A DNA stretch of 64,000 nt from Capnocytophaga periodontitidis (GTDB lineage: Bacteria; Bacteroidota; Bacteroidia; Flavobacteriales; Flavobacteriaceae), in assembly GCF_016126015.1 (NCBI RefSeq), contig NZ_JAEFDB010000004.1:62001-126000 (forward strand). The letters run 5' to 3'. The position numbers and the translations under genes are program-made. The notes beneath the pieces are model-generated. The model searched no databases. It was not told the origin of the DNA and was given only the letters and a program-made list of their open reading frames with translations. Shown one piece after another: positions 10,537 to 62,371 of the stretch. Within the stretch, counting starts at the first letter, position 1. Each line of letters opens with the position of its first letter.

Positions 10537-10638
10537 AATGCTATCGGTTTTATTAGACCTTTCTGTTCATCATCAGACTCCTCAGACTTGTCAGACTCGT
10601 CGGATAACTCTGATAAAACCGACTTTATTCAAAAGTAA

Positions 10639-10677
10639 AAAAATCCCTTGCAGTGCAAACTGCAAGGGATTTTTTTA
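10639..10677. terminator. bidirectional terminator between convergent operons
   Basis: Perfect stem AAATCCCTTGCAG...CTGCAAGGGATTT with a 6-base loop, A-run before and T-run after. It serves the plus-strand membrane gene and the minus-strand lipoprotein. Confidence 0.85.
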
Positions 10678-10704
10678 AAGTAAAGTAACTAATTTATTAA
10701 TTGA

Positions 10705-11487
10705 TTACTGTTTTTGGAAGAACATTGTAGTACCTCCAAGGCTAAGCGTAAGTGTTTGGTTGTTATTGCTAAAGCTAAAAGGGATAGGTACTTTTTGTCC
10801 GTTAGAAACGTTGTAATATTTGCCTCCTTCTTTTACATAGTCGTAGCTTTTCACTTCTCCAGCTTGACATTGTGTATTGTTCTCAGGCAGGGTATAGTAG
10901 AGCGAAAAACCTATAGAGCTCGCTACTATACTACCTGTAAAGCAAGCAGGAGTACCGGCAGGATAAGTAGTGCCTCCTGCTTCTATTTTGGTAAGTTCCC
11001 AAAGTCCTACCAAAGGATCGAGATAGCTATAGTCTACTCCTTTTTTGTGAAGGATATCTACTTCTGGAATACCTAAATTATTTGTAAAACGCAAAATAAG
11101 TTCTTTGCCTTTTATTTCGTATTTAAAAGAATTCATTTTCTGTCCTTTAGTGCCATTAGGAGAATTGCTAGCAATACTATGAATTATCTCACCATTAGAA
11201 AGGGTATAATCGTAATAGAAAGGAGTATATTTACATCCAGAACCATCCCTACGATACCATTCGAACTTCATCTGGGTATCTGAAAATGAGCGATAAGACT
11301 GCTTGGCGCAATTATCAGGAGTACTCCAACGGATATTTTTCCCATTGCCATTATAGTCTCCATACACAGTATGGTAATACCAATCCCCTTTGAGCGAAGT
11401 GCTACCTCCGCCGTTGTCGTCGTCTTTCCCGCAAGAGGAAAGGCATAATACTGTGGCAACCAATGCCGAAAAGATTAGTTTTTTCAT
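10705..11487 (-). CDS. lipocalin-like lipoprotein, tandem paralogue 1
   Basis: Lipoprotein signal MKKLIFSALVATVLCLSSCG followed by the Lys/Asp/Gly tract KDDDNGGGSTS. Two lipocalin-like beta-barrel segments are suggested by SLKGDWYYHT near residue 32 and LVGLWELTKIEAGGT near residue 158. Paralogous to the next two genes: signal sequences are nearly identical, while the mature parts differ most in this copy. It is the distal gene of three; function unknown, probably a ligand-binding envelope lipoprotein. Confidence 0.85.
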   Translation of the reverse strand: MKKLIFSALVATVLCLSSCGKDDDNGGGSTSLKGDWYYHTVYGDYNGNGKNIRWSTPDNCAKQSYRSFSDTQMKFEWYRRDGSGCKYTPFYYDYTLSNGEIIHSIASNSPNGTKGQKMNSFKYEIKGKELILRFTNNLGIPEVDILHKKGVDYSYLDPLVGLWELTKIEAGGTTYPAGTPACFTGSIVASSIGFSLYYTLPENNTQCQAGEVKSYDYVKEGGKYYNVSNGQKVPIPFSFSNNNQTLTLSLGGTTMFFQKQ

Positions 11488-11501
11488 ATAATATTTGTAT
11501 T

Positions 11502-11550
11502 ATCCTCTCTCCCGTTCCCTCTCTCCCAAGGAGAGAGGGGCAATCTGGAT
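11502..11550 (-). repeat. CT/GA-rich hairpin H3 upstream of lipoprotein gene (copy A)
   Basis: In gene orientation: CCCCTCTCTCCTTGGGAGAG, then a GGAACGGGAGAGAGG purine tract, ending about 18 bases before the ATG at 11487. Same element as at 12458, 13414, 17017, 18632 and 20262, always sense to the gene that follows. Confidence 0.8.
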
Positions 11551-11653
11551 AAGAGGGGTTAAAAAAAATGTTTGTTGTTTTTATAATTTATCAGACAAGG
11601 CGGACGTGTCAGACCAGTCAGATTCCTGAAACCTATCCCCTGAGACCTGACCC

Positions 11654-12442
11654 CTATTTTACTTTGGTAAAATAAAGGGTTACTAAGCCGTTTTGGGTTT
11701 GTTCGCTGTAGGAAAGCTTGGTGTTATTTTCTGAAAACACAAGTGCCAACTCCTCTTTGTTTTGGGGGTTGGTAATGTTATAATACTTGCCCCCCTCTTT
11801 TGCCCACTCGTAGGTATTGATAGTTTTTTGGCATTGCCCGTTTTGCTCAGGAACATTAAGATATAGTGTAAACCCTATGGAGCTACTCACTACAGTACCT
11901 TGCAAACATTCTCCTTCCTTTACAGTAGCTTCCGTTTGCCCGACAGTAGCTTTGGTCATTATCCAACGTCCTATAAAAGGGTCGAGATAGCTATAGTCTA
12001 CCCCTTTTTTGTGGAGAACTTGTATTTCTTCCTGTTGGCGATTATTTTTAAAGCGAAGGATAAGTTCCTTGTCCTTTATTTCGTATTTTATAGAGGCTGT
12101 TCCCCCTTTGTTTCCATTAGGAGAATCATTGGCAATCGTCATATTAAAAACGCCATTAGTAGCCGTATAATCGTAATACACTGGAGTGTATTTGCACTCA
12201 GGACCCTCTGAATAATACCATTCGTGCTTTATTTTTTTATCGGAAATAGACCAATAAGTTTTTTTAGCGCAATTGCCAGAAATTGCCCAGCTTTTTCCAT
12301 TACCATCGGGGTCATTATAAATGTTGTAAAGATACCAATCCCCATTGAGCGAAGTGCTTCCTCCGCCGTTGTCGTCGTCTTTCCCGCAAGAGGAAAGGCA
12401 TAATGCTGTGGCAATGAATGCCGAAAAAATTAGTTTTTTCAT
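11654..12442 (-). CDS. lipocalin-like lipoprotein, tandem paralogue 2
   Basis: 262 residues, signal MKKLIFSAFIATALCLSSCG. Two lipocalin-like segments (SLNGDWYLYN near 32, FIGRWIMTKATVG near 160). The C-terminal 60 residues are almost the same as in the neighbour at 12611-13399. Whole repeat unit, gene plus gap, is 957 bases, showing recent tandem duplication. Likely cotranscribed from the promoter at 13584-13591. Confidence 0.85.
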   Translation of the reverse strand: MKKLIFSAFIATALCLSSCGKDDDNGGGSTSLNGDWYLYNIYNDPDGNGKSWAISGNCAKKTYWSISDKKIKHEWYYSEGPECKYTPVYYDYTATNGVFNMTIANDSPNGNKGGTASIKYEIKDKELILRFKNNRQQEEIQVLHKKGVDYSYLDPFIGRWIMTKATVGQTEATVKEGECLQGTVVSSSIGFTLYLNVPEQNGQCQKTINTYEWAKEGGKYYNITNPQNKEELALVFSENNTKLSYSEQTQNGLVTLYFTKVK

Positions 12443-12457
12443 ATAATATTTGTGTTA

Positions 12458-12510
12458 TCCTCTCTCCCGTTCCCTCTCTCCTTGGGAGAGAGGGGCAATC
12501 TGGTTAAGAG
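12458..12510 (-). repeat. CT/GA-rich hairpin H3 upstream of lipoprotein gene (copy B)
   Basis: Same hairpin and purine tract as copy A, in the same position relative to the ATG at 12442. Confidence 0.8.
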
Positions 12511-12610
12511 GGGTTAAAAAATAATGTTTAATGTTGTTTATAATTTATCAGACAAGTCGGACGTGTCAGACAAGTCAGATTCCTGAAACCTATCCCCTGA
12601 GACCTGACCC

Positions 12611-13399
12611 CTATTTTACTTTGGTAAAATAAAGGGTTACTAAGCCGTTTTGGGTTTGCTCGCTGTAGGAAAGCTTGGTGTTATTCTCTGAAAAGACAAG
12701 CGGCAATTCCACTTTGTTTTGGGGGTTGGTAACATCGTAATATTTACCACCTTCCTTTATCCACTCGTAGGTATTGATAGTTTTTTGGCATTGCCCGTTT
12801 TGCTCAGGAACATTAAGATATATTGTAAACCCTATGGAGCTACTCACTACAGCACCTTGCAAACATTCTCCTTCCTTTACTATCACTTCCGTTTTTCCTA
12901 CGGTAGCTTTGGTCATTATCCAATATCCTACAAAAGGATCGAGGTAACTATAGTCTACCCCTTTTTTGCGAAGGATTTCTATTACTTCCTGTTGTTGATT
13001 ATTTTTTAAATATATAAAAAGCTCTTTCCCTTTCATTTCGTATTTTATAGAGGTTTTAGCTCCTTTTCTTACGTTAGGTGAATCATTGGCAACCGTCATA
13101 TTAAAAACGCCATTAGTAGCCGTATAATCGTAATATATAGGATAGTATTTGCACTCAGAACCTTCTAAATAATAGTATTCGTGCTTTATTTTTTTATCCG
13201 AAATAGAATAATAAGTTTTTTCAGCACAATCGTTAGAACTTGTCCAGTTCCGTCCGTTTCCATTGAGACCATTAAAATTACTGTAAAGATACCAATCCCC
13301 AGTGAGCGAAGTGCTACCTCCGCCGTTGTCGTCGTCTTTCCCGCAAGAGGAAAGGCATAATGCTGTGGCAACCAATGCCGAAAAGATTAGTTTTTTCAT
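12611..13399 (-). CDS. lipocalin-like lipoprotein, tandem paralogue 3
   Basis: 262 residues, signal MKKLIFSALVATALCLSSCG. N-terminal lipocalin-like segment SLTGDWYLYSNFN, second segment FVGYWIMTKATVG. Promoter-proximal gene of the three. Differences between the paralogues concentrate in residues about 36-150, while the signal sequence and the C-terminal half are conserved, which fits diversification of a binding face. Confidence 0.85.
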   Translation of the reverse strand: MKKLIFSALVATALCLSSCGKDDDNGGGSTSLTGDWYLYSNFNGLNGNGRNWTSSNDCAEKTYYSISDKKIKHEYYYLEGSECKYYPIYYDYTATNGVFNMTVANDSPNVRKGAKTSIKYEMKGKELFIYLKNNQQQEVIEILRKKGVDYSYLDPFVGYWIMTKATVGKTEVIVKEGECLQGAVVSSSIGFTIYLNVPEQNGQCQKTINTYEWIKEGGKYYDVTNPQNKVELPLVFSENNTKLSYSEQTQNGLVTLYFTKVK

Positions 13400-13413
13400 A
13401 TAATATTTGTGTT

Positions 13414-13465
13414 ATCCTCTCTCCCGTTCCCTCTCTCCCAAGGAGAGAGGGGCAATCTGGTTAAG
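13414..13465 (-). repeat. CT/GA-rich hairpin H3 upstream of lipoprotein gene (copy C)
   Basis: Same element as copies A and B, upstream of the ATG at 13399. Confidence 0.8.
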
Positions 13466-13583
13466 AGGGGTTAAAAAATAATGTTTAATGTTGTTTATAA
13501 TTTATTATCAGACAAGTCGGACGTGTCAGACAAGTCAGATCCCTAAAACCTATCCCCTGACCCCCTGAAACCTGACATCGGGG

Positions 13584-13591
13584 CAAAGATA
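13584..13591 (-). promoter_or_regulatory. -7 promoter box of the lipocalin-like lipoprotein cluster
   Basis: TATCTTTG on the minus strand, about 185 bases upstream of the first lipoprotein start. No equivalent box was seen in front of the second and third genes, which suggests one operon. Confidence 0.5.
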
Positions 13592-13641
13592 ACAAAAAAA
13601 TATATTTGTATCCTATTTTTTAACTTATTTTATATTTCGTC

Positions 13642-13718
13642 ATTCGTCTCTCGTCATTCATAACTCGCCCCTCGTCATTCGTCTCTCGTCATTCGTCATT
13701 CGTCTCTCGTAATTCTCT
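13642..13718. repeat. GACGAAT/GACGAGA heptamer array (complement strand)
   Basis: Eleven degenerate 7-base units reading ATTCGTC or TCTCGTC on the plus strand. Inverted relative to the 11-unit array at 41005-41081. The 518-base region 13400-13917 contains otherwise only H3, nonamers, and the two divergent promoters. Confidence 0.85.
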
Positions 13719-13836
13719 TACATTCTTTCTATATTTTTCGCTCTTGCTTTCTTTTTATTTTGTTGTTTATCAAACTGCTACATTTTTACTTATCTATATT
13801 TTCACTATCCTGTGTTTTAGTATATCTTTAACGTTT

Positions 13837-13844
13837 TATCTTTG
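13837..13844 (+). promoter_or_regulatory. -7 promoter box of the polysaccharide utilization locus
   Basis: TATCTTTG about 75 bases before susC; the leader ends with CTCTTAC, CTCTTAA, CTTTTAA heptamers directly before the ATG. Confidence 0.6.
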
Positions 13845-13917
13845 CGGCAGAATTAGGTATCAGTTGTCAGGGGACAGTTGTCAGGCACAAACTCTTACCT
13901 CTTAACTTTTAACTAAG

Positions 13918-16900
13918 ATGAAAGGAAAACAAAGAACTTTATTAAACAGTATTGGCAAGCTCACCTTGCTACTACTTTTTAGCTTGCTTTCTACCGCCCT
14001 TTCTGCCCAAAACAAAAAGATTAGCGGAAAGGTAATCGATGAAAAACACCAGCCCGTGCTGGGGGCATCGGTGGTGGTGAAAGGCACTACTAAGGGTACT
14101 ACTACCGATTTCGATGGGAATTTCACGATAGAAGTACCTGCTAAAGCCACGCTATCAGTTTCGTTTATAGGGTATCACACCCAAAATGTAGCAGTAGGCA
14201 ACCAAAACCAACTCACTATCGTGCTCAAAGAAGAACAAGAGCAGTTAGACGAGGTAGTGGTGGTAGGTTATGGTACTGTCCGCAAGAAAGACCTTACGGG
14301 GGCGGTTACTTCGGTGTCTAACAAAGCCCTCAAGGAGAAACCTATTGCCAACGCTGGGGAAGCGCTCCAAGGGCGTGCTGCTGGGGTGCAAGTAACCTCG
14401 GCGGGAAAACCTGGTGACAACGTGTCTTTTCGCATTCGCGGAATTAGTACGATTAACAACAGCGAACCGCTATTGGTTATCGATGGTGTACCTACCGACC
14501 TCGGTATCAACGCGCTCAACGTAGATGATATAGAAAATATCGATGTGCTAAAAGATGCTTCGGCAACTGCCATTTACGGCTCTCGTGGTGCCAATGGTGT
14601 GGTACTCATCTCTACCAAAAAAGGAAAAAATGGCGACGGCAAACTGTCGTTCAGCACCAATATTGCTCTCCAACAAGCCACCAACTTACCCGTGATGCTC
14701 AACGCCCGCGAGTTTGCTTCTTTTCACAACGAAATGATTGCCAACTACAACCGCACCCCTGGGGTGAGTCCGCTTTCACAACGCCCTGATTTTGCCAATC
14801 CTGAGGACTGGGGTGAAGGCACCAACTGGCTTAAAGCGCTTTTCCGCCCTGCTTTTATGCGCAACTATTCGCTTTCATACTCAGGCGGTAACGACAAGAG
14901 CAATTATTACGTATCAGCTGGGGTGTTCAACCAAGATGGGATTATCCTCAACACTTCTTACCGCCGTTATACAGTGCAGTTCAACGGTGAGTCGCGCGTA
15001 AAACCGTGGATTAAGTTTGGCAACAACCTCACCCTTAGCCACGACGAAAAGAAATCGGGCGACTACAACATCCGTATGGCAATGGCTTCTTTGCCTACAC
15101 AACCTATTTACAATGAAGATGGTAGCTACTCTGGTCCTGATTCGCCTGCCCATCAGTACAGCGATATCCGCAATGTGATAGGTACTGCCCTTATCAACGG
15201 ACAAAACACTACCAAAGGCTATAACATTTTGGGAAATATCTTTGCCGAGATTACTCCTGTGAAACATTTGGTATTCAAAACTACTGGAGGGCTCGATTTT
15301 AAATATTGGGACAATCGCAGTTTCTCACCTAAATACAACTGGAAACCTATACCCAATCCGCTCTCTAACCTCTACCAAGATGCTAACAAGAGCACTACCC
15401 TCCTATGGGATAACACACTCACCTACACCAATACTTTTGCCCAAAAGCACTTCCTCAATGTAATGGTGGGCACCAGTGCGCAAAACAATGTGTATAGCAA
15501 AATCAATGCGAGTGTGAGCAACTTCTTGAGCGACCAGCAAAACCAACTCAGCAAAGGCTTGGAAAACCCTACGGTAGGCGGTACAATGAACGATTGGGCT
15601 ATCCTCTCTTTCATCGGGCGACTCAACTATACCTATGCTGATAAGTACTTGCTCACTGCTACGGTGCGTCGCGATGGTTCTTCGCGTTTCTCCAAAGAAA
15701 ACCGCTGGGGTACTTTCCCGTCTTTCTCTTTGGCGTGGCGTGCATCAAATGAGTCTTTCTTCCCTAAAAACGACTATGTAAACGATGTGAAATTGCGCGT
15801 GGGTTACGGTATGACGGGTAATCAAGGCGGTATTGACAACTATGCTTATTTCACCAAATTGCGCACAGGGCAATATGTGTTCAACAATAATTTGGTTTCT
15901 ACCCTTTATCCTCACGTAATGCCTAACCCTAATGTGAAATGGGAAACGGTAGAGCAATTCAACGGGGGTATTGACCTCGCGCTACTCAAAAACCGCTTGA
16001 ACCTCACTTTCGATGCTTATATCAAAAACACCAGCGATATGTTGGTGCCAATGGCAGTATCGGTAAGTTCTGGTTATTCGGATATCAATGTGCCGAGTAT
16101 CAATGCCGGTAAAGTGGAAAACAAAGGGGTAGAGCTCACAGTATCATCAGTGAATGTAAATAAAAAGGACTTCCAATGGAATACTGATGTAAATGTATCG
16201 TTCAACCGCAACAAAATTGTGAAGATGAACGATGGGGTGCCTTTGTTCACTGGTTTTGAGGCGTTCCTCACCAAATTGCAAATCCTCTCCGAGGGTCACC
16301 CTGTAAATTCTTTCTATGGCTATGTAATGAACGGACTTTTCCAAAACCAAAGCGAGGTGGACAACTATGCTACCCAAGTGGAAAACGGTACCGCGCCTGG
16401 TGATGTGAAGTTCCGCGACCTCAACAACGACGGGGTCATCAATGCCGATGACCGTACTTATATCGGTAATCCGTTCCCTGAATGGACGTTCTCTATGAAC
16501 AACAACTTCAACTACAAGAATATTGATTTACAAATATTTTTACAAGGCGTAGCAGGCAACGATATCTACAATGCCAATCGTATATGGCAAGAGGGAATGT
16601 CGGTACCACAAAACCAAATTGCCAAAGTAAAAGACCGTTGGACTGGCGAGGGCACTAGCAATAGTATTCCACGTGCTATCTATGGCGACCCTAACCAAAA
16701 TGCGCGTCACTCTACCCGCTTTGTAGAAGATGGTTCGTATTTGCGCATCAAAAACGTAACTTTGGGCTATACGCTTCCTAAAGAGGTTACTCAAAAATTC
16801 CACACCGATATGTTGCGCATATATCTGTCTTGCCAAAATCTGTATACTTTCACCAAATACAGCGGTATGGATCCCGAAGTAGGCACTGGTGGCGTTGATG

Positions 16901-16956
16901 GCGGTACTTACCCTGTAACCCGCACAGTTAGCTTTGGATTAAACGTGCAGTTTTAG
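13918..16956 (+). CDS. susC: SusC/RagA-family TonB-linked outer membrane transporter
   Basis: 1012 residues, normal for the family. A long signal peptide (to about residue 31, ALSAQ) leads to a CarboxypepD_reg-like domain (ISGKVIDEKHQPVLGASVVV), the SusC signature LDEVVVVGYGTVRKKDLTGA, a plug domain (AGEALQGRAAGVQVTS, NNSEPLLVIDGVP, ATAIYGSRGANGVVLI) and a 22-strand barrel ending in aromatic VSFGLNVQF. It would import oligosaccharides in complex with the SusD lipoprotein. First gene of the PUL; substrate is deduced from the GH66 and GH97 enzymes downstream to be alpha-glucan, probably dextran. Confidence 0.96.
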   Translation: MKGKQRTLLNSIGKLTLLLLFSLLSTALSAQNKKISGKVIDEKHQPVLGASVVVKGTTKGTTTDFDGNFTIEVPAKATLSVSFIGYHTQNVAVGNQNQLTIVLKEEQEQLDEVVVVGYGTVRKKDLTGAVTSVSNKALKEKPIANAGEALQGRAAGVQVTSAGKPGDNVSFRIRGISTINNSEPLLVIDGVPTDLGINALNVDDIENIDVLKDASATAIYGSRGANGVVLISTKKGKNGDGKLSFSTNIALQQATNLPVMLNAREFASFHNEMIANYNRTPGVSPLSQRPDFANPEDWGEGTNWLKALFRPAFMRNYSLSYSGGNDKSNYYVSAGVFNQDGIILNTSYRRYTVQFNGESRVKPWIKFGNNLTLSHDEKKSGDYNIRMAMASLPTQPIYNEDGSYSGPDSPAHQYSDIRNVIGTALINGQNTTKGYNILGNIFAEITPVKHLVFKTTGGLDFKYWDNRSFSPKYNWKPIPNPLSNLYQDANKSTTLLWDNTLTYTNTFAQKHFLNVMVGTSAQNNVYSKINASVSNFLSDQQNQLSKGLENPTVGGTMNDWAILSFIGRLNYTYADKYLLTATVRRDGSSRFSKENRWGTFPSFSLAWRASNESFFPKNDYVNDVKLRVGYGMTGNQGGIDNYAYFTKLRTGQYVFNNNLVSTLYPHVMPNPNVKWETVEQFNGGIDLALLKNRLNLTFDAYIKNTSDMLVPMAVSVSSGYSDINVPSINAGKVENKGVELTVSSVNVNKKDFQWNTDVNVSFNRNKIVKMNDGVPLFTGFEAFLTKLQILSEGHPVNSFYGYVMNGLFQNQSEVDNYATQVENGTAPGDVKFRDLNNDGVINADDRTYIGNPFPEWTFSMNNNFNYKNIDLQIFLQGVAGNDIYNANRIWQEGMSVPQNQIAKVKDRWTGEGTSNSIPRAIYGDPNQNARHSTRFVEDGSYLRIKNVTLGYTLPKEVTQKFHTDMLRIYLSCQNLYTFTKYSGMDPEVGTGGVDGGTYPVTRTVSFGLNVQF

Positions 16957-17016
16957 GGGTCAGGCATCAGGTAATAAAATATAACACAATTATAAACAAA
17001 AAAAAATTACCCCTAT

Positions 17017-17070
17017 GCAGCCTTTGTGGCTTGCCCCCTCTCCTTGGGAGAGGGGGAACGGGGGAGAGGA
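17017..17070 (+). repeat. CT/GA-rich hairpin H3 upstream of susD
   Basis: CCCCCTCTCCTTGGGAGAGG followed by GGGAACGGGGGAGAGG, ending 10 bases before the susD ATG at 17080. It falls in an upstream in-frame extension that starts at 17026 and should not be read as coding. Confidence 0.8.
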
Positions 17071-17079
17071 ATTAATATT

Positions 17080-18564
17080 ATGAAAAAGATATTATACATC
17101 ACCCTATTAGCATTTCCGCTCTTCACGGCTTGCTCTAAATTCTTAGACAAGACCCCTTACGAAGATTCAAGTGCTGAAAACATAAGCGATGCGGCATCGG
17201 CAATTGCCCTTACCAATTCGGCTTATAAACCCTTGCAACGCTCTAACCTCTACAATATGCGCCTCTGGACGCTCGACATCGTAGCAGGTAACAGCATCGT
17301 AGGTGCTGGAGGTGGTAACGACGGACTCGAGACTATCACTCTTTCCAACTTCAACGCAACTGCCGATAACCCTTTGGCGCTCGAAATATGGCGCGGTTGT
17401 AACCCTGGTATTCTCTATTGCAATACGGCTCTGAAAGCTTTGCCTTCTGCCAATATCCCTGACGATATCAAAAACCGCTGTATCGGGGAAGCCAAATTCC
17501 TCCGCGCTCACTACTATTTCCTTTTGGTGCAACTCTTTGGCGATGTGCCTCTTCAGATCGACCCTAAAGAGAGTTTGACTAACAAAACGCCTTTCCGCCA
17601 AAGCAAAATGAAGATATACAACGAGGTGATTATCCCCGACCTCAAAGAGGCTTTCAACCTATTGCCTACACGCGAGCAATATAGCAATGCCGATAAAGGT
17701 CGTGCCACCAAAGGCGCTGCTGCGGGTATGCTCGCTAAAGTATACCTCACCTTGGGCAGATATAGTGAAGCCCTTGAAATGTGCAACGCTGTCGAAAACC
17801 TCGGCTATACCCTCAATCCTGATTATTCCGATTGTTTTGGCGCTGCCGAACGCAACAAAAACACTGCCGAGTCTATCTTTGAAATTCAGTATTACGGACT
17901 TACCAAAGATGATTTTTGGGGCGAAGAAAACCAAGCCTCTTGGCTCAGTACTTTTATGGGCCCTCGCAACAGTGGTTGGGTAGGGGGTGCTTATGGTTGG
18001 AATCAGCCTACACAAGAGTTTGTAGACCAATATGAGGCAGGCGACCTCCGCAAGGATAAGACGATTCTCTACGAGGGTTGCCCTAATTTTGAGGGGAATG
18101 CGTACCGCGCTTCAATGTCTAACACGGGCTACAATGTGCGCAAGTTTTTAGTGCCACTAAGTCAGTCGCCTGATTTCAACACCAACCCTGCCAACTTTGT
18201 AGCACTCCGCTTTGCCGATGTACTCCTAATGAAAGCTGAAGCCCTTAACGAGTTGGGTCGCACTACGGAAGCTGAAGTGCCTTTGTACAAAGTGCGCACC
18301 CGTGCGGGACTTACCCATCGCGCTGATATAGAGAACCTCACCCAAGCGCAAATGCGTGAGAAAATACGCCACGAACGCCGTATCGAACTCGCTTTTGAAG
18401 GACATCGTTGGTTTGATATGATTCGCTGGGACAACGGTCAGTATGCGCTGAATTTCTTGCACTCTATAGGCAAAACCAACGCCCGCGAGAAACACCTGCT
18501 CTTGCCTGTCCCTCAAAAAGACATCGATGCCAACCCCAACCTCACCCAAAACCCTGGTTGGTAA
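17080..18564 (+). CDS. susD: SusD/RagB-family nutrient-binding outer membrane lipoprotein
   Basis: 494 residues. Lipobox in MKKILYITLLAFPLFTACSK, then LDKTPYED. SusD hallmarks: TPR-like helices in the N-terminal half (AKFLRAHYYFLLVQLFGDVP, MLAKVYLTLGRYSEALEMC) and the C-terminal block VALRFADVLLMKAEALNELG ... RRIELAFEGHRWFDMIRW. The protein forms the lid of the SusC pore and binds glycan at the cell surface. The ATG at 17080 directly gives the signal peptide; the longer frame from 17026 would translate the H3 hairpin. Confidence 0.95.
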   Translation: MKKILYITLLAFPLFTACSKFLDKTPYEDSSAENISDAASAIALTNSAYKPLQRSNLYNMRLWTLDIVAGNSIVGAGGGNDGLETITLSNFNATADNPLALEIWRGCNPGILYCNTALKALPSANIPDDIKNRCIGEAKFLRAHYYFLLVQLFGDVPLQIDPKESLTNKTPFRQSKMKIYNEVIIPDLKEAFNLLPTREQYSNADKGRATKGAAAGMLAKVYLTLGRYSEALEMCNAVENLGYTLNPDYSDCFGAAERNKNTAESIFEIQYYGLTKDDFWGEENQASWLSTFMGPRNSGWVGGAYGWNQPTQEFVDQYEAGDLRKDKTILYEGCPNFEGNAYRASMSNTGYNVRKFLVPLSQSPDFNTNPANFVALRFADVLLMKAEALNELGRTTEAEVPLYKVRTRAGLTHRADIENLTQAQMREKIRHERRIELAFEGHRWFDMIRWDNGQYALNFLHSIGKTNAREKHLLLPVPQKDIDANPNLTQNPGW

Positions 18565-18571
18565 TAATAAT

Positions 18572-18592
18572 GACGAATGACGAATGACGAAT
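18572..18592. repeat. three GACGAAT heptamers in the susD-susE gap
   Basis: Three perfect 7-base units, then CTCTTAT, CTCTTAA, CTTTTAA heptamers (18601-18622) as in the susC leader. Confidence 0.8.
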
Positions 18593-18631
18593 GACAACAA
18601 CTCTTATCTCTTAACTTTTAACTAATGTTCA

Positions 18632-18699
18632 CCCTTGTCGCTTTTGCGGCTTCCCTCCCCCTCGCCTTCGGAGAGGGGGAGAACGGAGGGGGTGAGGAC
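18632..18699 (+). repeat. CT/GA-rich hairpin H3 upstream of the susE-like gene
   Basis: CCCTCCCCCTCGCCTTCGGA and GAGGGGGAGAACGGAGGGGG arms, ending with GTGAGGAC about 11 bases before the ATG. Confidence 0.8.
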
Positions 18700-18709
18700 A
18701 TAAACTAAT

Positions 18710-20149
18710 ATGAAACCATACCATTTATACATCGCCTTCCTCTTACTGCTCCTTACGGGCTGTAAAAAAGAGGACTATATGGAGCTCTTCAAAGAGGGCA
18801 AACCCTTTGAATTGAAAGCTCCTAAAGAAAATGTCGCCTTAGACGCTGCCAACCCCGAACAAGAAGCGATCAAGTTCACTTGGACGGCGGCTTCCAATCG
18901 CGGCACCAATGCCGCTATCACCTATACTTTCCAAATGGATGTGCAAGGCAACAACTTCGCGGGAGGTATCAGCGAGAATGTAGGTCGTGAAGCCTATGAG
19001 AGAGTGTATAAAAACGAAGAACTCAACACCCTCTTGCTCAATACTTTCAAGGTTGCGGCAGACACCGAAGTTACGATGGAAGTACGCATTATTGCTCAAG
19101 TAGCTTCTGGCGAGGGAATGAAACAACATACCAATGTAAAAACCATCGTTTTCAAAACGCATACCCCTATCAGCAATACGTTGTATATCATTGGTAGTGC
19201 AGCCCCTCACGGTTGGAGTGCCGATCAAGCCGAAGAGATGAAACCTGTTGAGGGTACTCCTAAAGCCTTTGCGTGGTCAGGACGATTGTCTGCTGGCGAA
19301 CTCAAGTTTATCACTACCAAAGGTCAGTTTATACCATCGTATGGCAAAGGCAGCAACAACAACGAGTTGCATTTCCGCAAAACCGATGCCGACACCAGTG
19401 ATGAGAAATTTACAATTGCCGAAAGTGGTGTCTATACTGTAAAAGTGAACCTCATCAATCTCACCATAAGCATCACCAAAGGTGAAGCGCCTGAATATAC
19501 CGAGTTGTGGTTCGTAGGTGAACCTACTGGTTGGAGCTTTAAGAAAATGACTGTAGACCCTGTCGACCCATTTGTGTTCCACTACAATGCCGATTTAGGC
19601 AACGGAGGTGAGTTCAAAATAGGTACTAAAGAAGGTGATTGGTCAGCAGTATTTTTCCGTCCGAAAGAAAATAATACTGCTGAAGGTAGCGACCTCCCTG
19701 TGAAGAAATGGGCGGGCGACCCCGATAACAAATGGAAAATTGCAGCTGGTACTTACAAGATTACGCTCAACACTCGTACGATGAAGATTGACATTGTGCC
19801 TTTCACTCCTTATGCAGGAATGTATATGATTGGTAGTGCTACCGATGCTGGTTGGGATATCAACAATCCTATTGCAATGACCGTTGATAGTGGCAATCCT
19901 AATGTCTTTACGTGGGAAGGCGACTTGAAAGCGGGCGAACTCAAATTCTCTTGCGACAAGAAAAGCGATTGGGGTGGCGACTGGTTCTTGGCTGCTAAAG
20001 CTGATAAAGCACCCGCCGGAGTGGAAGAACCGATGATTTTCAGCGCCCACGGCTCTAACCCTGATAATAAGTGGAAAATCACTGAGGCTGGCACCTACAA
20101 AATCACCCTCAACCAACTCACCCAAAAGGTGATTATTAAAAAACAATAA
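18710..20149 (+). CDS. SusE/SusF-like outer membrane starch-binding lipoprotein
   Basis: Lipobox in MKPYHLYIAFLLLLLTGCKK. Residues about 25-150 form the SusE N-terminal Ig-like domain (FELKAPKENVALDAANPEQE, IKFTWTAASNRG). Three carbohydrate-binding repeats follow, each beginning with a LYIIGSA-type strand: TLYIIGSAAPHGWS (about 162), ELWFVGEPTGWSFKK (about 264) and GMYMIGSATDAGWDINN (about 368). Two of them end in DNKWKI.AGTYKITLN. Location in the PUL after susD agrees with a surface glycan-binding role. Three domains is between SusE (two) and larger SusF-like proteins. Confidence 0.9.
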   Translation: MKPYHLYIAFLLLLLTGCKKEDYMELFKEGKPFELKAPKENVALDAANPEQEAIKFTWTAASNRGTNAAITYTFQMDVQGNNFAGGISENVGREAYERVYKNEELNTLLLNTFKVAADTEVTMEVRIIAQVASGEGMKQHTNVKTIVFKTHTPISNTLYIIGSAAPHGWSADQAEEMKPVEGTPKAFAWSGRLSAGELKFITTKGQFIPSYGKGSNNNELHFRKTDADTSDEKFTIAESGVYTVKVNLINLTISITKGEAPEYTELWFVGEPTGWSFKKMTVDPVDPFVFHYNADLGNGGEFKIGTKEGDWSAVFFRPKENNTAEGSDLPVKKWAGDPDNKWKIAAGTYKITLNTRTMKIDIVPFTPYAGMYMIGSATDAGWDINNPIAMTVDSGNPNVFTWEGDLKAGELKFSCDKKSDWGGDWFLAAKADKAPAGVEEPMIFSAHGSNPDNKWKITEAGTYKITLNQLTQKVIIKKQ

Positions 20150-20261
20150 GTTAAAAAGTCTCCACATACCCAGCTGTGTGCACTCGCTGGCTTCCCCCAA
20201 GGGGAGGGAGTTTAAGAAAGTTCAAGAACAAAACATCTTTATACGTGTTAAACAACCCTCT

Positions 20262-20327
20262 TTCCTCCCTTTTGCGGATTCCCTCCCCCTCCCTTTCGGG
20301 GAGGGGGAGAACGGAGGGGGTGAGGAT
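20262..20327 (+). repeat. CT/GA-rich hairpin H3 upstream of the GH66 gene
   Basis: CCCTCCCCCTCCCTTTCGGG and GAGGGGGAGAACGGAGGGGG, then GTGAGGA, 15 bases before the ATG at 20343. A second small palindrome, CTTCCCCCAAGGGGAGGGAG, is at 20191-20210 in the same gap. Confidence 0.8.
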
Positions 20328-20342
20328 AAAAAATCAATTAAA

Positions 20343-22082
20343 ATGAAAGCTTTATATACTCTATTCTTCGCCACTACGCTCAGCCTCTTCTCTTGCGAGA
20401 AGAACGATACGCCGAGCAACAACCCTATTACTTATGGCGAAACTTATTTGAAAATAGATATCAGCACCGATAAGGCGGTCTATACCCCTGGTAGCACGGT
20501 GCGCTTCTCCTTGGCGAGTATGCCCTCTGGTACTTACAAAGTGCGCTACTCTTATTTAGGCGAAATCATTAAAGAAGAACCTCTTACCAGCGCCTCTTGG
20601 CAATGGGTAACCCCTGCCGATGACTATCGAGGTTATTTGGTGGAAATCTACCAAGAAGCAGGCGGTAAACAAAATACTTATGGCTGTATCGCTGTGGATG
20701 TATCTTCCGATTGGACAAAATTCCCTCGCTACGGCTTCTTGTCCTCTTACGGCAAAAATGAGCCTATCGAGAAGAATATCGACTTTATGAATCGCTGTCA
20801 TATCAATGGTATTCAGTTCTACGATTGGATGTACGACCATCACAAACCGCTGGCTGGCACCCCTCAAAACCCTGCTAATGAGTGGCCAGACCTCTTCAAA
20901 CGTCCCACTTTTCTTTCTACTGTACGTGGCTATATCAGCGCTGCTCATAGCAAGGGTATGAAAGCGATGTTCTACAACTTGGCTTTTGGGGCACTCAAAA
21001 ATGCCGAAGCCGATGGGGTTGCTAAAGAGTGGTTTCTCTACAAAGACAATCAGCATAAAGAGAAAGACGCTCATATCTTAGGCGACTTTGCCCGCAGTAG
21101 TATCTACCTCACCAACCCTGGTAATACGCACTGGCAAAACTACTTAGCAGGGCGCAACAGCGATGTCTATGCCGTTTTTGATTTCGATGGCTATCATATC
21201 GACCAACTCGGAGGGCGTGGCACGGTATATGATTACAATGGCAATAGCGTAGACCTCTTGCCTCAATACGCTTCGTTTATCAATGCGATGAAAAACGCAC
21301 ATCCTAACAAACGCCTTGTGATGAACGCGGTAGGGCAATACGGTCAAACCGAAATTGCAGGTACCAATAAAGTGGATTTTCTGTATACCGAAATATGGGA
21401 CGAAAAAACCTACGACCAGTTAGCTCGCATTATCCTCGACAACTACAATCGTAGCAACAACCAACTCAAAACCGTTTTGGCTGCCTATATGGATTACGAA
21501 AAATCTAAGAATGCAGGTTTTGTAAACGAACCTGGCGTATTGCTCGCTAATGCAGTGATTTTTGCCTTTGGAGGGGCTCATTTAGAGATAGGCGAACACT
21601 ACCTCGCCAATGAGTATTTCCCTAACAAAAACCTTCAAATGAAAGCCGACCTCAAAAAAGCGCTTATCACCTACTACGATTTCTTGGTAGCTTACCAAAA
21701 CCTATTGCGCGATGGCGGTAGCTATACCTCAGCTCAAGTAACTGCCGAAAATGCAACCATAGCGGCTTGGCCTGCAGCGAAGGATAAAGTGGCGGCTCTC
21801 ACCAAAACCGTGAACGGCAAGGATATAGTGCATCTTATCAATTTCAACGGGGTAACCTCTATGGACTGGCGTGATACCAACGGTACTCAAAAGAAACCTA
21901 CCACAGTAACCGACCTTAAAACTACCGTTGCTGTAACCGCACAACCCAAAAAAGTGTGGTTCGCTACTCCCGACCTCTTTGGCGGTGCTCCCCGTGTGGT
22001 AGAATTTACCTATAACAACAACCAAATCACCTTCACCCTCCCCTCTCTCAGCTATTGGGATATGGTGGTGATAGAGTATTAA
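20343..22082 (+). CDS. GH66 dextranase-like lipoprotein (endo-alpha-1,6-glucanase or cycloisomaltooligosaccharide-forming)
   Basis: 579 residues with lipobox LFSCEKN at Cys18. An N-terminal Ig-like domain (to about 125) precedes a TIM barrel and a C-terminal beta domain. GH66 features: YGFLSSYG, INGIQFYDWMYDHHKP, MFYNLAFGA, and the nucleophile D287 in FDFDGYHIDQLGGRG with the probable acid/base E350 in DFLYTEIWDE, matching D385/E453 of Streptococcus mutans dextranase by motif. It would cut dextran outside the cell, or at the surface, for import by SusC/SusD. The ATG at 20343 gives the signal; the frame from 20178 reads through H3 and is rejected. Confidence 0.92.
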   Translation: MKALYTLFFATTLSLFSCEKNDTPSNNPITYGETYLKIDISTDKAVYTPGSTVRFSLASMPSGTYKVRYSYLGEIIKEEPLTSASWQWVTPADDYRGYLVEIYQEAGGKQNTYGCIAVDVSSDWTKFPRYGFLSSYGKNEPIEKNIDFMNRCHINGIQFYDWMYDHHKPLAGTPQNPANEWPDLFKRPTFLSTVRGYISAAHSKGMKAMFYNLAFGALKNAEADGVAKEWFLYKDNQHKEKDAHILGDFARSSIYLTNPGNTHWQNYLAGRNSDVYAVFDFDGYHIDQLGGRGTVYDYNGNSVDLLPQYASFINAMKNAHPNKRLVMNAVGQYGQTEIAGTNKVDFLYTEIWDEKTYDQLARIILDNYNRSNNQLKTVLAAYMDYEKSKNAGFVNEPGVLLANAVIFAFGGAHLEIGEHYLANEYFPNKNLQMKADLKKALITYYDFLVAYQNLLRDGGSYTSAQVTAENATIAAWPAAKDKVAALTKTVNGKDIVHLINFNGVTSMDWRDTNGTQKKPTTVTDLKTTVAVTAQPKKVWFATPDLFGGAPRVVEFTYNNNQITFTLPSLSYWDMVVIEY

Positions 22083-22626: not shown

Positions 22627-24915
<2,289 letters not shown>

Positions 24916-61924: not shown

Positions 61925-62371
61925 TTATTTTTTGTAGAGATGTTCGCTCAATTCTTCTGTAGAGGTAAAGAAATGTCCGTAACCTTTTTCGGTAAGACCC
62001 TTTATAAGAAGTTTGTCAGAAGTCCATATTTTGTGTTTGATTTGCAGATGAAGAGCAATAAAGTGCATATCATTCTCATCTACATCAGCGACTATTTTTT
62101 CAGCTTTTGCTACATAGGTTTTTTGCAAATCTTCTTCTTTTACAATGGTAATGCCTTCTAATAGTTTTTTAAAATCAGCTAATAGTTCTTTTTTTGTTTT
62201 CTGATTTTTAAAACGTTTTACCAAATCAGGAATATGCTCGGTTACTTCAGTAATGAGATAGTCAGGCACTATATATTGTATTTTCTTCCTTTCAGCCAAT
62301 ATTAAAGCTTTATGACCAGAGGGGTTTATAAGAGCACTCATAAAAATGTTACTGTCGGCAATGATAATCAT
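61925..62371 (-). CDS. PIN-domain toxin
   Basis: 148 residues. PIN acidic residues: D6 (IIIADSNIFMSAL), E42/E45 (LITEVTEHIPDL), D101 (DVDENDMHFIALHL) and D119 (IWTSDKLLIKGL). The fold is a metal-dependent ribonuclease, as in VapC-like toxins that cut tRNA or mRNA. Twelve bases downstream of the antitoxin gene. The C-terminus (KGLTEKGYGHFFTSTEEL) matches the remnant at 30932-31027. All catalytic residues are present, so the toxin is probably active. Confidence 0.88.
   Translation of the reverse strand: MIIIADSNIFMSALINPSGHKALILAERKKIQYIVPDYLITEVTEHIPDLVKRFKNQKTKKELLADFKKLLEGITIVKEEDLQKTYVAKAEKIVADVDENDMHFIALHLQIKHKIWTSDKLLIKGLTEKGYGHFFTSTEELSEHLYKK

Follow-up and report, generated by a model that had tools for sequence, protein, structure and literature searches.

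A short hairpin with a G-rich tail, standing immediately before six genes in a 64,000-nucleotide stretch of Capnocytophaga periodontitidis DNA (the window: positions 62,001 to 126,000 of contig NZ_JAEFDB010000004.1), is probably a dispersed DNA repeat of the BoxC type that one clade has turned into a directional element of the 5' leader. It has a three-strand anatomy whose third strand covaries with the stem, it is dispersed, it turns over between species, and in three related genomes it is placed in the sense orientation close to start codons. BoxC-type repeats have stood for decades without an assigned function and position offered no clear hint in Escherichia coli; where the copies of a clade are mostly sense and start-adjacent, they amount to a set of natural constructs that separate triplex, hairpin and orientation, and covariation between stem and third strand is sequence evidence that the triplex pattern, beyond the hairpin alone, is maintained or copied.

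Anatomy of the six elements and the triplex code

An earlier note on this DNA had described a conserved hairpin, always in the sense orientation, before three lipocalin-like genes, susD, a susE-like gene and a gene of glycoside hydrolase family 66 (GH66). That placement is borne out by direct reading and by a covariance model (R1, trained on three window sequences and on four from other parts of this genome, here called the home genome), both of which put all six elements 10-17 nucleotides (nt) from the start codon, and by a scan for class II triplex motifs. The downstream proteins match Lipocalin_4 (three times), SusD_RagB, SusE/SusF and Glyco_hydro_66 in Pfam; gene names beyond seven window proteins assigned in this way come from reading of N-termini. 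Coordinates and distances are those of the ends of the R1 match, counted from the tail end to the ATG. On the minus strand, element 1 (11504..11554) ends 16 nt before the lipocalin-like gene at 10705-11487 and has a triplex core at 11504-11539 that reads CCCTCTCTCC-TTG-GGAGAGAGGG-AAC-GGGAGAGAGG, while element 2 (12459..12509; core 12459-12494, loop inverted to CAA) and element 3 (13416..13466; core 13416-13451) likewise stand 16 nt before the lipocalin-like genes at 11654-12442 and 12611-13399. On the plus strand, element 4 (17020..17069) lies 10 nt before susD (17080-18564), with a core at 17034-17069 reading CCCCCTCTCC-TTG-GGAGAGGGGG-AAC-GGGGGAGAGG; element 5 (18640..18697; core 18655-18697, stem of 12 nt, one bad triplet) lies 12 nt before the susE-like gene (18710-20149); and element 6 (20268..20325; core 20283-20324, stem of 11 nt, one bad triplet) lies 17 nt before the GH66 gene (20343-22082).

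What the copies have in common is the architecture and not a single conserved sequence, as there are three stem variants (CCCCCTCTCC; CCCTCTCTCC; and CTCCCCCTC, which continues with GCC or CC) and CAA stands in the loop of the copy at 12459. This flip is seen among near-identical paralogous leaders, 12459-12494 carrying CAA and both 11504-11539 and 13416-13451 carrying TTG. Read backwards, the tail repeats the purine arm, as GGAGAGAGGG-AAC-GGGAGAGAGG among the lipocalin copies and GGAGAGGGGG-AAC-GGGGGAGAGG at susD show, and in some copies elsewhere in the home genome an A of the arm is matched by a T of the tail (for example, GGAAGGGGG-AAC-GGGGGTTAG). Because the tail mirrors the purine arm, hairpin and tail together form one class II intrastrand-triplex motif, and judged by sequence the six elements are class II (purine-motif) intrastrand triplex motifs of the BoxC/PIT/TM kind; the triplet code of purine-motif DNA triplexes and the E. 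coli BoxC/PIT/TM_ECO repeat, such as CCCTCTCCCTGTGGGAGAGGGCCGGGGTGAGGGC, are given in PMC4666352. Many home-genome copies are preceded by a 5' tag near CTTTTNCGG[AC]TTG. The run of T that would mark an intrinsic terminator follows the hairpin in none of the six elements when they are read directly, AACGGGAGAGAGG, AACGGGGGAGAGG or AACGGAGGGGGTGAGG following instead, and neither strand of the window matches a G-quadruplex pattern (four runs of at least three G, loops of 1-7).

The class II scan was run according to the published ITxF rules (pyrimidine stem, loop of 1-6, complementary purine stem, loop of 1-6, third strand; triplets C-G-G, T-A-A or T-A-T with at most one mismatch), here with a stem of at least 8 and G/C above 50%, and it recovered six of six elements in the window with no other match, and none in the shuffled window. 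The hairpin pattern of the earlier note, with up to three mismatches, reaches four of the six sites (18640 and 20268 are missed) and is expected 0.00 times in shuffles. Among 118 R1 matches (50 from the home genome and 68 from six others, with reverse-strand partial matches excluded), 76 have at least seven triplets with at most one bad, as opposed to none of 590 shuffled sequences. Across 27 distinct combinations the third strand matches the stem at 0.926, the permutation mean being 0.684 and none of 20000 permutations reaching 0.926, and with swapped tails and a re-optimised register the comparison is 0.957 versus 0.867 over 52 distinct combinations (0 of 5000 as high). Opposite A, the third strand carries A 29 times, T 15 times and G four times; opposite G it carries G 156 times, A nine times, C twice and T never; and opposite C there is a single T. 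Pairing of the tail with the pyrimidine arm, as a direct repeat, was also tried and set aside as weak (0.738 versus 0.719, with 109 of 5000 permutations as high).

Copies across the genome and their position relative to genes

In the home genome (3.23 Mb, 55 contigs, completeness 99.62) at least 27 full-length R1 matches reach E<=0.0011, with at most 150 of 376 candidates scored, so that weak copies may be missed. Good triplex motifs (at least seven triplets, at most two bad) occur in 19 of the 50 matches examined, which makes about 19 copies per 3.23 Mb by R1. The class II scan returned zero triplex motifs in 20 home-genome stretches of 20 kb, a zero which says that the scan adds nothing to R1 there and is not a genome density, the stretches having been hand-picked after the R1 positions were known and containing none of the full-length matches. 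Two of the 19 triplex copies lie in open reading frames (ORFs), one is intergenic and antisense to both neighbors, and 16 are sense to the next gene, 11 of these at 7-23 nt and five at 84-160 nt upstream of its start. With random placement and orientation within the same intergenic gaps as the expectation, 11 of 17 intergenic triplex copies are sense and within 40 nt of a start where 2.5 are expected (P about 2e-6), and counting the lipocalin paralogues once leaves 8 of 14 (expected 2.1, P about 2e-4).

Two other Capnocytophaga genomes show the same placement, namely G018 (12 of 16 intergenic triplex copies, expected 3.1) and G010 (7 of 10, expected 1.7), and since these genomes are related and share loci, the three biases are not independent. 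A covariance search of the genus, as the earlier note had proposed, finds the opposite of random orientation without start enrichment in the home genome, G018 and G010, and finds no excess in G017 (2 of 20 analyzed copies, expected 1.3), G001 (1 of 6) or G013 (1 of 4); in G009 both of two copies are start-proximal and sense. No antisense triplex copy within 40 nt of a start is present among the analyzed copies of seven genomes. Genes were called by a longest-ORF rule (at least 80 amino acids), with the start shifted past the element at L047, L094 and L104; G017 contributed 20 matches, with L131, L135, L138, L139, L140 and further G017 matches left out, as were the matches in G003, G004, G011, G014, G015 and G016. 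The GC skew of 20 G010 stretches, taken as a check on replication-strand bias, was too noisy for placing the origin or terminus. In titles and abstract openings of the literature on intrastrand triplexes, on the string GGGGTGAGG, on repeats and transcription starts of Capnocytophaga and on repetitive extragenic palindromic (REP) elements in flavobacteria and Bacteroidetes, the sense, start-proximal placement of such repeats is undescribed, and the words Capnocytophaga and Bacteroidetes are absent from the main text of PMC4666352.

Another reading takes the G-rich tail for a Shine-Dalgarno (SD) sequence carried by the repeat, and GGGGGTGA might pair with the anti-SD of 16S rRNA, but the spacing from the end of the match to the ATG varies between 3 and 36 nt among 30 copies of three genomes, and SD sequences are stated to go unrecognized by Bacteroidia ribosomes (PMC9976891), making this explanation highly improbable.

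Several points weigh against a BoxC-type repeat turned directional leader element. A 60-nt limit weakens the placement bias (8 of 14, expected 3.1, P 0.003); home copy L014 is antisense and 43 nt from a start; the short home copies, which have five triplets, show a looser orientation (of 15, seven are sense within 40 nt, expected 3.5, P 0.03), and three short copies are antisense within 40 nt of a start. R1 takes in the tail and learned from start-proximal copies, which biases both the triplex-passing share and the subtype mix, the stem-tail covariation tests ignore relatedness and shared ancestry of the copies, and the stem mismatches (12 G.T, 4 A.C and 4 other), several of which share ancestry, could mean an RNA-level constraint. 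The exact TM_ECO pattern CCCTCNCCCN3-6GGGNGAGGGN3GGGNGAGGG has 0 matches in the window, and the elements are therefore relatives in kind and not TM_ECO itself; a stable triplex in vivo is described as unsupported by Holder et al. 2015 (PMC4666352); and since E. coli BoxC is reported to favor neither a strand nor a distance, BoxC membership does not by itself account for the placement.

A subtype with a TAGG or TTAGG tail (L017, L020, L021, L025, and L012 at 1404-1452) lies 84-160 nt upstream of starts and has a AATATTAGATGTTTTCTC-like 5' flank in some copies. By eye, L017, L020 and L025 stand just above promoter-like TAnnTTTG sequences, and none of these three copies was seen at the corresponding G018 site.

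Turnover between genomes, 5' leaders and the lipoprotein link

The DNA of the polysaccharide utilization locus (PUL) is 94% identical across the compared genomes. The susD element is present in the home genome and G010 and missing from G018, whose susD leader is another, AATTGTTAATT-rich sequence; the susE element is present in all three; and at GH66 two genomes share a stem variant and G018 carries a different one. An element that the home genome has before an HlyD-like lipoprotein gene is missing from the equivalent position of G010, G018 and G013, no counterpart was seen in G018 for home copies L014, L017, L020 and L025, and L029 has a different hairpin variant in G018 and G010. Three genomes have the same short copy, letter for letter, before a tsf-like gene, and three others lack it. 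The slot immediately before the gene at 22729 holds another inverted repeat in the home genome (22618-22700, with ends GAATTGTCCCC / GGGGACAATCC) and a triplex element 8 nt before the start in G010. This comparison of orthologous sites left out L022 and L027. Shared elements are 94% identical, like the coding start (15 pairs), a value inflated by the need for both copies to be recognized, and the 50 nt upstream are 69% identical; extra purifying selection on the element was not seen over the 15 pairs and eight control genes. The idea that the element is a recombination breakpoint was dropped, as four of the eight element-free control genes diverge upstream likewise (67% overall) and the divergence is thus not element-specific.

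Association with lipoproteins is a matter of degree. A sense element, triplex or short, lies within 40 nt of the start at 15 distinct loci in the home genome, nine of which encode lipoproteins (L032 and L047 dropped, GH66 counted by hand) and 12 proteins with a signal-like N-terminus; the corresponding numbers are 13, four and seven in G018 and seven, five and seven in G010, and a background of 338 sampled genes yields 27 lipoproteins and 113 signal-like N-termini by the same crude rule. The share of lipoprotein genes behind the element is hence above background, and the element is not confined to them: thyA-like, tsf-like, riboflavin-synthase-like, ABC-transporter-like and patatin-like genes also stand behind copies, and a lipoprotein-specific RNA switch was rejected as a rule. 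Genes of PUL type account for a good part of the home-genome excess (in the window susD, susE and GH66; by reading, also a SusD-like pair at L050), and the lipoprotein link does not hold as a genome-wide rule. It is correct, as had been noticed earlier, that other lipoprotein genes of the window lack the element, since 10 of the 15 genes flagged by a crude lipobox rule are without it; the rule misses GH66, which has one.

The lipoprotein excess (nine of 15 versus 27 of 338) and the strong sense, start-proximal bias in three genomes speak for a cis-acting RNA hairpin in the 5' untranslated region (UTR) by which individual cistrons of the PUL and other operons would have their translation or stability set, an explanation I nevertheless consider unlikely. 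In each of the six leaders the hairpin folds as RNA (z -2.35 to -5.03); over 10600-21000 no Rfam family reaches its gathering score (11 matches, all below it); the short copy of the tsf-like gene is identical in three genomes, but uncompensated stem mismatches in other orthologues (the thyA-like gene in G018, SusE in G010) weigh against a strictly conserved RNA structure, G018 susD does without the element, and some copies lie within ORFs or antisense. The tail obeys the code of a DNA triplex, a purine-motif structure that according to PMC4666352 does not form in RNA, and a plain 5'-UTR RNA hairpin does not account for a tail that varies together with the stem in the manner of a third DNA strand. 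Taken as a sign of RNA selection, the wobble asymmetry of the stem mismatches points clearly in neither direction.

Of the two origins suggested earlier, a 5'-UTR element or a mobile hairpin, a recombining or mobile repeat retained at the pre-start site fits, and the RNA hairpin leaves the tail covariation unexplained. For the BoxC-type repeat I would picture the following course. As no Y1 transposase was found in the home genome, copies would be spread and lost through DNA processes, that is, slippage, recombination or a mobilizer no longer present, and they would be kept chiefly at sites that leave the triplex-competent strand as non-template strand and at least about 15 nt between the end of the hairpin and the start codon. 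At such sites the repeat would become part of the 5' leader transcript, as a GC-rich hairpin, probably with a modest effect on the downstream cistron; a cis effect on expression is possible. A bolder version, which I put forward tentatively and with more doubt than belief, is that the C. ochracea/C. sputigena group has recruited the triplex repeat as a directional leader module, whose triplex-competent strand, kept as the non-template strand, could fold in the wake of RNA polymerase and tune the cistron that follows, and that repeat types are swapped in the pre-start slot to retune expression of surface lipoproteins.

Known repeats and wider distribution

The likeness to BoxC/PIT/TM_ECO as presented in PMC4666352 extends to the pyrimidine arm, the purine arm, the mirror third strand and the G.G-C and A/T.A-T triplets, to the GGGGTGAGG-type third strand of many Capnocytophaga copies, to a copy number of a few tens (E. 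coli MG1655 has 23), to inverted pairs in some genomes and to presence or absence that varies among relatives. Capnocytophaga differs in its stems (CCCCCTCTCC, CCCTCTCTCC, CTCCCCCTC..), in a second loop that is mostly AAC and in the 5' tag. It also differs in the sense placement within 40 nt of starts in three genomes, whereas E. coli BoxC is reported in PMC4666352 to be without strand bias or distance trend and to lie more often upstream than downstream of ORFs. The same source has TM_ECO always intergenic in E. coli, in contrast to the two of 19 home triplex copies that fall in ORFs by the longest-ORF rule.

Within the genus, 13 of 20 genomes have R1 matches at E<=0.01, and a family survey with stricter filters gave matches at E<=0.001 in five of 199 genomes drawn, two of them Capnocytophaga and the other three with one or two weak matches each. 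The exact 22-mer of purine arm and tail, GAGAGGGGGAACGGGGGWGAGG, is carried by 97 stretches of the species collection, and the 80 listed by title are mostly Gallionella/Sideroxydans/Nitrosomonadales and other Proteobacteria, with Gemmatimonadetes, Chloroflexi and three Capnocytophaga records, few of the 80 being Bacteroidota, so the core motif has spread or arisen repeatedly. By eye, the 22-mer often lies within a roughly 130-bp multi-hairpin repeat in Gallionellaceae-type records (L168-L264) and within a long palindrome in some Chloroflexi records. These G/C-rich palindromes of other phyla share the purine tract with the elements described here and differ in their flanks, which are other repeats or a long palindrome, and, going by sequence alone, convergence on the triplex code is possible.

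Movement by a tyrosine (Y1/RAYT) transposase, with a REP/REPIN-like element merely tolerated at the pre-start site, is improbable. Like REP/REPIN elements (PMC3733652), the repeats combine a short palindrome with an unpaired tail in dispersed copies, yet REPs lie mainly downstream of coding regions and the Capnocytophaga elements mainly upstream, and the start-codon bias would be left unexplained. Copies are absent at corresponding sites in relatives, and G017 has both a Y1 transposase and the most R1 matches among the 20 genomes, together with inverted pairs, but PF01797 has no match in the home genome, G018 or G010 and is present in just two of the 20, where the two Y1 genes have no R1 match in the surrounding 2.3 and 3.2 kb. 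An ORF with an MPNHxH-like motif, a motif of such proteins, occurs in just two of the 97 stretches that carry the 22-mer. No GTAG/CGTC tag before the hairpin was seen by eye in alignment A4; GTAG does occur in the 3' tail of some copies (GGGGGTAGGC). The inverted pairs of G017 (L123-L142) are REPIN-like composites of two hairpins with a conserved spacer, and the 20 matches analyzed there have no start excess; the home genome shows no more than a strong copy with a nearby weak, partial partner in the opposite orientation, at L045 and L015.

The window holds other short repeats as well. CGTCATT / AATGACG simple repeats lie at 13620-13700 and 18568-18600, upstream of the susC and susE starts, and a second short repeat at 20162-20213, between susE and GH66, matches C1:39604 of the home genome (95%) and G009:C1:28767 (90%).

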